This document shows positions 732-21,833 of a stretch of 21,891 bases of DNA, piece by piece. The translations under genes and the position numbers were made by a program. Within the stretch, counting starts at the first letter, position 1, and each line of letters starts with the position of its first letter. The stretch covers positions 1-21,891 of IMG/VR virus record IMGVR_UViG_3300021478_000118; one strand, 5' to 3'. This DNA comes from a virus. Under the pieces are notes generated by a model. The model saw only the letters and a program-made list of their open reading frames with translations, searched no databases and was not told the DNA's origin.

Positions 732-940
732 GATGGTTCCTCCTGGGCTGTCGCCTGGCGGCGCTGGTTGCGTTCGTGGTTGCGGCGGGCTATCGCCTCG
801 TCCAGAGCTTTCCGGCAGACCGCCAACATCACCTGGTTCATGTCCCGCTTCGACGGCGGGTCGCGGTGCGGTCGTTCGGAGTCGCGAGGATCGGCCGACC
901 GGATCGGCGGCGGCGTGGTGGCGCGCTTCCAGGTTGACAT
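728..940 (-). CDS. Small hypothetical protein
   Basis: This is a 70-residue charged protein rich in Arg and Asp, with a predicted helix around MNQVMLAVCRKALDEAIARRNHERN-like sequence in its second half. I do not recognise a family. The start lies in a GTGATG at 943-938. ATG 940 is preferred because GGAGGA sits four bases before it, whereas GTG 943 is too close. The gene overlaps the stop of the helix-turn-helix gene and ends in a GTGA overlap with the Cys-rich gene, so it is a coupled member of the leftward operon. Confidence 0.6.
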   Translation of the reverse strand: MSTWKRATTPPPIRSADPRDSERPHRDPPSKRDMNQVMLAVCRKALDEAIARRNHERNQRRQATAQEEPS

Positions 941-1458
941 CACTCCTCCAGGCGTTTGACGAAACTGAGATCGATCACCGGCGCCGCCGGCCGGTCTTTC
1001 GTCCAGTCCGCGAACCGCGAATAATCCACAGCACCCTTCCGCGCGTGACGCCCGCTGTTCCCATTGGGAGACGCCGCCGCAACGCTGCGGCGTGCGGCGT
1101 CTCCCTGTTCAGTCTCTTTAGAGACTGTTCGGGTCGCACCATGCGCGCGCTTTCGCGACACCATGCGCGCGCCTGGGGTCGCACCAGGCGCGCGCTCCAA
1201 CAGTGCCGCTAGATCGAAGACCGACGCCCGGCTTGGCTTGTGGACAACCGACACGCCTGTGGATTCCACGACCTCTTTCAGCAGCCGCAACACGCTCGAC
1301 CGGTGCAGCCCGGTGATCTCGGCGATCGTCGCCGCCGACGGCCACGCCTTGCCTTCCCTGGTGGAATGGAAGGCCAACACCTGCAACACGTGCCGGCCGC
1401 CCGGCGACAAGCCGGGCGCCTCCACCCGCATCGCCGCCCGGATGTGCTGCCAGCTCAC
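940..1458 (-). CDS. Helix-turn-helix protein, probable replication initiator
   Basis: This 172-residue protein has an N-terminal winged-helix domain. Residues 20-63 read GRHVLQVLAFHS...KAWPSAATIAEITG...SSVLRLLKEVV, the pattern of HTH_36/DnaD-like phage replication proteins, in which WPS precedes the first helix. The middle (about 85-135) is low complexity and Arg/Ala-rich, and its DNA contains direct repeats. The C-terminus ends SRFADWTKDRP...IDLSFVKRLEE. The start is a GTG in a 4-base GTGA overlap with the 70-residue gene. Such proteins in small temperate phages often bind an origin lying in their own coding sequence, and the repeats at 1020-1270 fit that. A transcriptional regulator remains possible because no catalytic or loader motif is visible. 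Confidence 0.7.
   Translation of the reverse strand: MSWQHIRAAMRVEAPGLSPGGRHVLQVLAFHSTREGKAWPSAATIAEITGLHRSSVLRLLKEVVESTGVSVVHKPSRASVFDLAALLERAPGATPGARMVSRKRAHGATRTVSKETEQGDAARRSVAAASPNGNSGRHARKGAVDYSRFADWTKDRPAAPVIDLSFVKRLEE
1020..1270. other. Candidate replication origin: DnaA boxes, iterons and inverted repeat inside the helix-turn-helix gene
   Basis: Three kinds of origin signal cluster here. DnaA-box-like 9-mers: TAATCCACA at 1022-1030 on the plus strand, TTGTCCACA at 1247-1239 on the minus strand (the actinobacterial consensus), and GAATCCACA at 1267-1259 on the minus strand. Three direct repeats: CACCATGCGCGCGC at 1137-1150 and 1159-1172, and CACCAGGCGCGCGC at 1182-1195. They are spaced 22 and 23 bases apart, about two helix turns, and these spacings are not multiples of three, so protein repeats do not explain them. 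A 7-bp inverted repeat, CAGTCTC-TTTA-GAGACTG, lies at 1110-1127 beside the iterons. Its AT loop is a small melting-prone spot. Confidence 0.55.
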
Positions 1459-2311: not shown

Positions 2312-2559
2312 GGTGTTTCCTGCTGCTGATAACGGTCCCCGATGGAGCCGTCACTGAGTAGCCAGAACCGGCCACGAACCCCAGGGTCGTCGTCGTCCCA
2401 TCGCATTCCGCAATCGAACAGCGATCCGTCTAGGCGCTCTTGCAACGGATGAGCGATGATCCAGCCGTTGTCACCAAACTGGATGATGTGGTCGTGCTCC
2501 TCCAGTAGTTCTAAGAGGCGAGTGAGCTGCCATTGGCGGTGCTTATCGGGATTAGACAC
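2308..2559 (-). CDS. DUF6085-like small protein
   Basis: The protein has 83 residues when started at GTG 2559. The frame is open further upstream, but that part lies inside the methyltransferase gene and is Ser-rich nonsense. AGGCGG upstream gives a modest ribosome site, and the 8-base overlap with the methyltransferase end is normal for this operon. The core reads LLELLEEHDHIIQFGDNGWIIAHPLQERLDGSLFDCGM. The pattern GW-x-I-HPL...LFDC is what I recall for DUF6085-type proteins of actinobacteria and their phages. The function of that family is not known. The assignment is from memory of the motif, without a search. Confidence 0.6.
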   Translation of the reverse strand: MSNPDKHRQWQLTRLLELLEEHDHIIQFGDNGWIIAHPLQERLDGSLFDCGMRWDDDDPGVRGRFWLLSDGSIGDRYQQQETP

Positions 2560-3085
2560 TGAGCCGCCTTTGAGCGAGCACGCGCCCCATGATCCCAGTG
2601 CCGGGGAATAGGTCAGTGAGCTCATCGCCATCGACGTAGCCGAGCAGGTCGAGCACCCAGCGGCAGAAGGCGGCTGGCTTGGCGCCGACCAGGCCACGCT
2701 CGAGCGTGATCGGCTCGGCCAGATGATCCCGGCCTACTGGCGCGCCGTCAGCGGATCGGTCCCGGCCCGGCGCGAAGATGAGCGGCTCCCAGGTGTAGGC
2801 GATCCGAACGTTGCGCTTGTAGGCCGCGAACGGTTTGACCCATGCCGCTACTCGAGCTCGAGGCGGCGCAAGCGGTAGGAGCTCACGCAGCGATGGCGTC
2901 GAGCACGACAGCGCCCACCCGTCGTAACGGTCCTCACACCAGACCATCAGGGCGCGATGCGCTTCGGGGTCATCCCAGCGGGCCGCGTCGATGTGGTCGT
3001 AGAACCGTGAGCAGCCCAGGTACGGCGGGTCGGCGTAGGCCAGTCTCACGATTCGTTGTCCCGATAAGTGCTGGTTATCGGTCAC
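2552..3085 (-). CDS. Orphan DNA methyltransferase (N6-adenine or N4-cytosine type)
   Basis: This 177-residue methyltransferase has catalytic motif IV DPPY at 19-22 (LAYADPPYLG) and SAM-binding motif I, DLFPGTG, at about 158-164. That is the beta-class order, with the catalytic motif first and the SAM site last. The middle contains VKPFAAYKRNVRIAYTWEPLIF, typical of phage methyltransferases of this size. It is short, and no target-recognition domain is obvious. No restriction endonuclease of a matching system is nearby, so it most likely protects phage DNA from host restriction or marks it for regulation. The start is GTG 3085 in a GTGA overlap. The base modified cannot be told from DPPY alone. 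Confidence 0.88.
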   Translation of the reverse strand: MTDNQHLSGQRIVRLAYADPPYLGCSRFYDHIDAARWDDPEAHRALMVWCEDRYDGWALSCSTPSLRELLPLAPPRARVAAWVKPFAAYKRNVRIAYTWEPLIFAPGRDRSADGAPVGRDHLAEPITLERGLVGAKPAAFCRWVLDLLGYVDGDELTDLFPGTGIMGRVLAQRRLSV

Positions 3086-20152: not shown

Positions 20153-21613
20153 TCACATAATCCGGAAATCGCCGAGGGCGGCGGGGGCGTGATCGAACGC
20201 CCATACCGAGACCGTGGCCGCGGTGAGACAGGCCAGGCTGCCGGCCGACTGGCGGCGGCCCCACGCCCAGGCGTCGCCGAGCTGGCGGCGGGCGGCGTCG
20301 TTGGCGGCCGCGTCCAACGACGGGTGGGGCCGGTAGCGGACCAGGGGCGGATCCGCGACCAGGCCCTCCAGCAGACTGGCGCACGCCGCCGCGTAGTCGC
20401 GGGCGTTCAGGCCGGCCAGCTCGAGCCCGCCCCGGGTGGCGGCGTCGGCGACGTCCAACGCCGGACCGGCGGCGTCGTAGCCGACCGAGCGGGGCTGCCA
20501 CCGCTCGACCAGCTCGCCGAGCCGGCCGGGAAGCCACCCCACCCCGGGCCGGCAGTCGGCCACCTCAACATGCGCCACCCCGGCCTCGTCGCGCCAGCCG
20601 GCCACGACCGCCGCGTCCGACCGGTCGACGGCCACGTCAAAAGCCAACGACAGGCCCCCAGGGTCGGGCAGGACGGCCTCGGGGTCGGCGGCCGCCCTCC
20701 AAGCGCTCAAGGGGATGACCCGGGCGGTGGTGGACACCCAACGGTTGCCGTAGGCCCGGGCGAACTCGTCCGGTCCGAGAATGTCGAGCGCCGCCTGCAT
20801 GGCGTCGGCGCCGATCGTCAACCCGAAGGCGGGATGATACAACGGCCATGAGACCGGATCGGTTGGGTCGAGATGGTCAGGGCAGGCCCACTCGAAATAG
20901 GCGATCCCCGACGTACGACCATCTCGGGCGGCCGCCCGGCCCTGCTCGACGGTGCCCAGCCACCACGTCGACGTGGCGTCACCAGCGGTGGACACTTTCA
21001 CCACCTGGGCGTTCGGTCGGGTGGCCTGGGTCGGCACGATCGCCTGGTCGATGTCCCGGCCCCGCTGCAGATCAAAAGCCCAGCACTCGTCGACCACCAC
21101 CAGGTCACTGATTTTGGAGTGCAGGCCGTCGGGCGTCGGCGGGAACGGCCGGATCAGCCCGGACGAGCGCCGCCAGCGGATGTGCTCCGAGCCGGCCGCC
21201 CGGCGCAGCTGCACCTCCCGGCCGAACCCGGCCACGATCGGCCAGTGCTCGTTGAGCAGCCAATCGACGGCGTCCTTACCGGACTGCATCGTGAACCACA
21301 CCCGGGCGCGGGGAATGACCAGCGCTCGATGGTCCATCAGCGCCCCGTCGTAGGTTGTTTTCCCCGACTGGCGCGGGACGGTGATGATCCCGAACTTGTA
21401 GCAGTAGCGGCCGTCGGCGTCGACCTCGCCGAGCACGTCGCCGACGTAGTGCTGCCACGGCATGAACGGTTTCCCTGACGCCGCCGCCATCTTGGCGACC
21501 GCCGGCCCGAACGTCAGCCGGTCAGGGCTGCGGGGCGTTGCTAGGGCTGGCGGCGGGCCGGCCGAGGTCGGCCAGGAGTTGCTCGAACGCGTCGACGGGC
21601 TCAGGACGGTCAC
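20153..21613 (-). CDS. terL: Terminase large subunit
   Basis: This 486-residue packaging motor has an N-terminal ATPase with Walker A PRQSGKTT (80-87) and Walker B LVVVDE (171-176), followed by a C-terminal RNase H-like nuclease with an acidic strand LAFDVAVDRSD (D326) and further acids near GYDAAGPALDVAD. The start is uncertain. GTG 21613 gives a 92-base overlap with the small subunit but keeps the RLTFGPAVAKMAA segment typical of the family. ATG 21490 would lose it. A rare CTG start in between is conceivable. No nuclease or ATPase residue is missing. Confidence 0.93.
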   Translation of the reverse strand: MTVLSPSTRSSNSWPTSAGPPPALATPRSPDRLTFGPAVAKMAAASGKPFMPWQHYVGDVLGEVDADGRYCYKFGIITVPRQSGKTTYDGALMDHRALVIPRARVWFTMQSGKDAVDWLLNEHWPIVAGFGREVQLRRAAGSEHIRWRRSSGLIRPFPPTPDGLHSKISDLVVVDECWAFDLQRGRDIDQAIVPTQATRPNAQVVKVSTAGDATSTWWLGTVEQGRAAARDGRTSGIAYFEWACPDHLDPTDPVSWPLYHPAFGLTIGADAMQAALDILGPDEFARAYGNRWVSTTARVIPLSAWRAAADPEAVLPDPGGLSLAFDVAVDRSDAAVVAGWRDEAGVAHVEVADCRPGVGWLPGRLGELVERWQPRSVGYDAAGPALDVADAATRGGLELAGLNARDYAAACASLLEGLVADPPLVRYRPHPSLDAAANDAARRQLGDAWAWGRRQSAGSLACLTAATVSVWAFDHAPAALGDFRIM

Positions 21614-21833
21614 TTGTCAGCCCGTTCGCCTTGAGCATGTCCAGGTAACCGCCGTTGACGGTGTTAACCAGTTCGGGGTCGTGGGCATCCTCGGCCATGT
21701 CGAGGGCGTGGGCCTGCACCCGTAGCGCCGTCCGGGCCGCCTTGGTGATGTCCGGGCGGTCGCGCAGCGACGCCTCGAGCGCCGCTTCGGATCGGCCCAA
21801 ATGGCGGCCCGGGCGGCGGGAATCAGCGGGCAT
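21522..21833 (-). CDS. terS: Terminase small subunit
   Basis: This is a 103-residue protein: GRSEAALEASLRDRPDITKAARTALRVQAHALDMAEDAHDPELVNTVNGGYLDMLKANGLTS, then VDAFEQLLADLGRP. The LRVQA...DMAEDA...DPEL pattern and YLDMLKANGL are those of small terminase subunits of actinobacteriophages. It recognises pac or cos DNA and loads the large subunit, which is coded directly downstream with overlap. The start is ATG 21833; a ribosome site is not evident. It is the first gene of the late operon. Confidence 0.82.
   Translation of the reverse strand: MPADSRRPGRHLGRSEAALEASLRDRPDITKAARTALRVQAHALDMAEDAHDPELVNTVNGGYLDMLKANGLTSDRPEPVDAFEQLLADLGRPAASPSNAPQP

Follow-up and report, generated by a model that had tools for sequence, protein, structure and literature searches.

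A probable iteron-type replication origin with a DnaA box inside the helix-turn-helix gene of a small phage

Origins that carry iterons inside the initiator gene itself are classic, with lambda gene O as the well-known case, and iteron origins that include DnaA boxes are long familiar from plasmids. The plasmid origins of P1 (oriR), pSC101, R6K and RK2 combine a DnaA box, iterons about 20 bp apart, an AT-rich region and a Rep protein, but these origins lie beside rather than inside the rep gene and employ other Rep families. In lambda, the iterons of ori are flanked by an AT-rich tract (PMC7466680). For the RepA proteins of mycobacteriophages Miko and Rachaly, a 2020 study suspected an origin in or next to the gene and found no repeats (PMC7157519). 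In the literature that we searched, which most subscription papers lie outside, there is no description of an origin with a DnaA box and phage-specific iterons in a short HTH_36 initiator.

The locus described here is part of a 21,891-base virus record, all of which was analysed and is hereafter called the window. The minus strand carries the late genes (terminase, portal, capsid, tail and lysin) together with most early genes, and the plus strand carries the integrase and repressor genes. After these two, the gene order is excisionase-like, RecT, a possible DNA methyltransferase, an HTH_36 gene at 940-1458 and HNH. The possible early-region methyltransferase is a 177-aa gene (2552-3085) with a weak N6-adenine methyltransferase match and 46% identity to a protein of one relative (G006). 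Given the likeness of TerL to that of the very small actinophages Rhodococcus RRH1, Gordonia SallySpecial and Arthrobacter Prospero, the host is probably an actinobacterium. Relatives were gathered via TerL, and uncultivated phages carry TerL genes 63-87% identical to that of the window. Many related contigs (the ends of L005-L034) start about 280-400 bp before TerL, and this shared start point suggests that the molecule ends at a fixed, cos-like site between HNH and the small terminase. Searches of viral and genome contigs with the HTH_36 and RecT proteins returned no close relative of either, a DNA-level search of phage records gave no match, and neither an Rfam family nor a tRNA was found.

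The original prediction placed a replication origin inside the HTH_36 gene and regarded its product as the initiator. The elements of this region are as follows.

940-1458, minus strand: putative initiator gene encoding 172 aa, with a winged-HTH-like domain (HTH_36) at the N-terminus and the rest apparently disordered
1264-1410, minus strand: codons of the HTH_36 domain (residues 17-65, Pfam)
1239-1247, minus strand: perfect DnaA box TTGTCCACA, between the HTH codons and the iterons
1176-1196 (core 1182-1195), minus strand: iteron 1, repeat CACCAGGCGCGCGC
1159-1172, minus strand: iteron 2 (core), repeat CACCATGCGCGCGC
1131-1151 (core 1137-1150), minus strand: iteron 3, repeat CACCATGCGCGCGC
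1100-1129, minus strand: AT-rich, purine-rich patch, a candidate DNA unwinding element, which follows the iterons immediately when read in the direction of the gene
1110-1127, no strand assigned: 7-bp inverted repeat CAGTCTC-TTTA-GAGACTG, with a TTTA loop, within the AT-rich patch
1066-1105, no strand assigned: perfect 12-bp inverted repeat (1066-1077/1094-1105) with a 16-nt loop, adjoining the AT-rich patch
1022-1030, plus strand: one-mismatch DnaA box TAATCCACA, of doubtful significance

HTH_36 is the sole Pfam family above the cut-off for the 172-aa protein (4.3e-8), which leaves it without a match to any known iteron-plasmid Rep family or to PF04492 (Phage_rep_O). PHROG matches to replication initiation or O-like proteins cover the N-terminal ~65 residues only (1.4e-6 to 1e-4). 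Both kinds of match are short and modest, and the proteins of relatives score better; the assignment as a phage replication gene with N-terminal HTH_36 (phrog_391/1032/270 type) is weak but consistent. The PHROG match to phage replication-initiation proteins, weak as it is, speaks for the predicted role of the iteron-bearing gene. AlphaFold confidence is limited to around residues 19-67 and the model is poor outside the HTH, and the iteron-bearing part of the gene seems to encode a disordered linker. The window and 11 related records, some of them possibly incomplete contigs, yielded neither a DnaB-type helicase nor an IstB/DnaC-type loader; for the window, this agrees with the earlier statement that no helicase gene is present. 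Among the neighbours of the initiator gene in the window, none was recognised as P-like or DnaC-like.

The three 14-bp repeats are located, as predicted, at 1137, 1159 and 1182, with spacings of 22 and 23 bp, inside the initiator gene and 3' of the codons for its DNA-binding domain. An extended 21-mer (GGGTCGCACCAtGCGCGCGCT) is present at both 1131-1151 and 1176-1196, and two iterons together make a perfect 12-bp inverted repeat (1165-1176/1184-1195) that had not been noticed before. With a score of 42 out of 48, the array is the top three-fold repeat of the whole window (runner-up 34), and the same scan found the iterons of lambda gene O as a positive control (score 36, spacing 24/23). Weak repeats are plentiful in GC-rich coding DNA, and chance or repetition at the protein level might be put forward to explain the array. 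Such an origin of the repeats is exceedingly improbable, and is already refuted by several tests. The highest score among 45 Markov-simulated genomes is 38, and none of 300 synonymous codon resamplings, with the protein fixed and the genome's own codon usage, reaches 42 (maximum 36). The spacing is out of frame, and similar arrays recur in relatives. Of 14 comparable arrays elsewhere in these phages, 86% have both spacings in multiples of 3 and none is spaced 22-23; such in-frame spacing is expected of protein repeats, and the arrays in rep genes differ from it. The repeats are thus a feature of the DNA rather than of the protein, as the original prediction had argued from their spacing.

Arrays just 3' of the HTH codons are also present in seven relatives, each with its own iteron: TGACCCCGCGCG in an HTH-type gene of G005, TTAAGGGGGTCA in G007, GGTGTCCGGTCA in G008, AACCCGCGCGCC in G017, GGGGTACCTCCA in G001, CAACTGGGCCGA in G006 and ACCTATGCAA in G013. 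Their spacing is mostly 21-24 bp, and codon shuffling reproduces them in 0 to 1.3% of cases. The 12-mer score is unmatched elsewhere in the genome for G000, G005, G006, G007 and G008. The cases of G013 and G001, where one and three other bins, respectively, reach the array score, are weaker, and the G017 array is distinct only at a spacing of 34-35 bp. Three further records fetched after the pattern had been seen (L115, L116 and L117) have their top array in the gene, with spacings of 24/22, 23/23 and 21/22 bp. The expectation that relatives would conserve the repeats as DNA therefore holds for position and not for sequence: nearly all have a 22-23 bp array at the same place, but the repeat itself differs in each phage. 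As the iterons of different phages have unrelated sequences, this recurrence is not explained simply by common descent of the DNA. In most relatives the array lies between an upstream DnaA box and a downstream AT-rich patch, and the layout as a whole recurs with different iteron sequences, which supports the proposal of an intragenic origin.

In the window, the perfect box TTGTCCACA is about 45 bp from the iterons and is the only TTRTCCACA (0.09 expected). It had been described as one of several DnaA-box-like 9-mers that flank the repeats, and it is where it was said to be; a second box, with one mismatch, is at 1022-1030. The perfect sequence is a high-affinity DnaA box of Mycobacterium tuberculosis and Streptomyces coelicolor (PMC4285127). 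Given the protein and codon usage, codon shuffling assigns P = 0.014 to the occurrence of any perfect box in the gene, and GTT, the valine codon used within the box of the window, stands for 19 of 372 valines across the genes that were counted. Across 721,654 bases of related contigs there are eight perfect TTRTCCACA sites, some of them spotted by eye before the count was made, and seven are no more than 150 bp from a 22/23-bp array, compared with 0.7% of random positions (binomial 7e-15). Since some boxes had been seen beforehand, the fresh test with L115-L117 mattered; two of these three have a perfect box in the gene. Two of the eight sites are outside HTH_36-type genes (G019 and G014), and the G019 gene with the box has a replication-initiation PHROG match of 1.4e-43. 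The G014 site, near a contig end, is in a stretch (21590-21730; L087/L088) that has GCATATGC-type palindrome repeats, an AT-rich stretch and the perfect box, and has the appearance of an origin that is not part of an HTH_36 gene.

These observations bear on whether DnaA takes part at all. In a lambda-type intragenic origin that operates without DnaA, the initiator would open the DNA, an unrecognised phage protein (for example the product of a small unassigned early gene) would recruit the helicase, and the box would be a coding coincidence. Five of the 12 compared records with an HTH-type gene have no perfect box in it (G005, G008, G012, G017 and L116), and thus DnaA use may not be universal. 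Moreover, the box overlaps a V-x-H/K-type protein motif, and in several relatives it coincides with a V-[DH]-[KN]-type motif, so that constraint on the protein could explain some of its recurrence; for the window, the codon-shuffle test reaches no more than P = 0.014. Lambda itself depends on DnaA by way of pR transcription and competition for DnaB (PMC7466680), which also fits a DnaA-free mode of opening. We nevertheless consider this alternative unlikely, if worth serious attention, given that nearly all perfect boxes in 0.72 Mb adjoin arrays, that the protein context or orientation of the box differs among G006, G007 and the window, and that no helicase or DnaC/IstB-type loader was detected.

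The patch at 1100-1129 is 57% A+T in a genome of 68% G+C, is the most AT-rich 30-mer of the gene and stands at the 99.6th percentile of the genome. By sequence composition, then, an AT-rich region flanks the iterons, and with the DnaA box next to iterons of about 22 bp the locus has the plasmid-type layout. Five of the six phages compared (G000, G005, G007, G008 and G017) have the gene's most AT-rich 30-mer immediately on the 3' side of the iterons (combined p for these five of about 4e-5), and these 30-mers are usually purine-rich on the gene strand. The corresponding position in G006 has ATAAAGATAAGAAGATAAAAAGAAAAGATA, and G012, whose HTH assignment is weak, departs from the layout.

Two perfect hairpins, at 1066-1105 and 1110-1127, are adjacent to each other and beside the iterons, and share GAGAC/GTCTC motifs. 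The smaller matches the inverted repeat with a TTTA loop that had been described previously, whereas the larger, which belongs to a set of just four perfect 12-bp inverted repeats listed for the window, had not been mentioned, nor had the AT-rich patch. Single-strand folding of 1055-1260 is strong (z -5.75). Neither hairpin is common to the relatives compared, and for this reason we do not count them as a defining part of the origin; they may take part in priming or regulation in this phage only, or be incidental.

Cumulative GC skew reaches its minimum at 2446, which is 1.25 kb away from the iterons; the measure is imprecise and only roughly compatible with an origin at the array, and in relatives the minimum has no consistent position. 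This distance would suit an arrangement in which the protein represses or handcuffs at operator or copy-control sites inside its own gene while replication starts elsewhere, and plasmid iterons do also act in autoregulation and copy control. However, the array is in the middle of the gene rather than at a promoter, the recurring AT-rich patch and DnaA box point to initiation, and the window has no better iteron array elsewhere. We regard a purely regulatory role as improbable.

Taken together, the sequence evidence favours positions 1022-1247 as the core of an iteron-bound, DnaA-assisted replication origin inside its own initiator gene, a reading to which we assign a probability of roughly 0.85. 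The 172-aa protein would bind the three iterons through its N-terminal winged-HTH-like domain, possibly as dimers because the iterons overlap inverted repeats, and host DnaA would bind the adjacent box. The two proteins would then strain and open the AT-rich patch beyond the iterons, where melting is expected to start, and host DnaB would be loaded there, probably through DnaA. Given the missing C-terminal half of the initiator and the failure to detect a helicase or loader, it is economical to suppose that host DnaA both helps to open the patch and brings DnaB. One extension of this model is a mini origin cassette carried by a group of small phages, in which a DnaA box within the coding sequence functionally replaces the lambda-O-like helicase-recruiting half and the loader gene, and phage-specific iterons co-evolve in register with the DNA-binding domain. 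Each phage, having evolved its own iteron sequence, would in such a cassette have its own replication specificity. We see the odds for this extension as about even.

If the DnaA-assisted model is right, a group of phages of about 15-27 kb that have yielded neither a helicase nor a loader gains a definite start site for replication, and experiments can ask directly whether DnaA takes the place of a phage helicase loader. The architecture is conserved without conservation of sequence, and ordinary alignment would miss such cases. The succession of HTH gene, DnaA box, 22-bp iterons and AT-rich patch offers a recipe for finding origins in other unannotated phages, and the relatives represent a natural series of initiator-iteron pairs for the study of initiator specificity and iteron co-evolution.

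Among cultured tiny phages with a similar TerL, the array scan revealed no clear cassette in RRH1, SallySpecial, EricDab, Schiebs, Prospero or Coeur, and these phages must start replication otherwise or with more degenerate sites. The initiators of larger actinophages belong to another family, and some of these phages (Blett, Dardanus and Eureka) encode a DnaB-type helicase of their own; no perfect DnaA box was seen in the gene. Among phages with this other kind of initiator, the Gordonia phages Verity (gp56; L121 1882) and Dardanus (gp47; L122 1876) have 22-23 bp arrays inside the gene, again with no perfect box.

Other phages with HTH_36 initiators offer a further comparison. The Pseudomonas phages Riah and vB_PaeS-D14E share the N-terminal HTH_36 domain, with iterons directly after it. 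Six or more ACCCCCGCAG repeats are present inside this gene (L108 2718-2830; L111 2719-2830), which is annotated as 'helix-turn-helix' or 'putative DnaA recombination protein'. They differ from the window in their longer initiators (about 250-280 aa) and in having their own iterons (CACCCCCGCAG) at other spacings. The Riah protein aligns to phrog_391 nearly end to end, and lambda O aligns to the C-terminal half of that family. In D14E, a Replication P gene follows the HTH_36 gene, and its repeats are therefore probably an O-type origin. Bradyrhizobium phage BDU-MI-1 has GTCAAC...GACA repeat units in an HTH_36 initiator-like gene (L109 2807-2990), at the position that the iterons have in the window, a candidate origin, directly upstream of a DNA primase/helicase gene.

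As in lambda ori, the iterons of the window occupy a mid-gene position, on the 3' side of the DNA-binding codons and followed by an AT-rich tract, at a spacing of 20-24 bp. The window differs in that whole-length O homology and a recognisable P-type helicase loader next to the gene are absent: the N-terminus is HTH_36 rather than PF04492, the protein lacks the C-terminal region common to lambda O and phrog_391, and no P gene is recognisable. Furthermore, the window has a DnaA box beside the iterons. The Miko and Rachaly RepA proteins are likewise actinophage HTH initiators, but belong to extrachromosomal parABS prophages, whereas the phage studied here has an integrase. With P1 oriR, pSC101, R6K and RK2, the window has in common a DnaA box, iterons, an AT-rich region and a putative initiator, and its origin would be a lambda-like intragenic one that works in the manner of an iteron plasmid.
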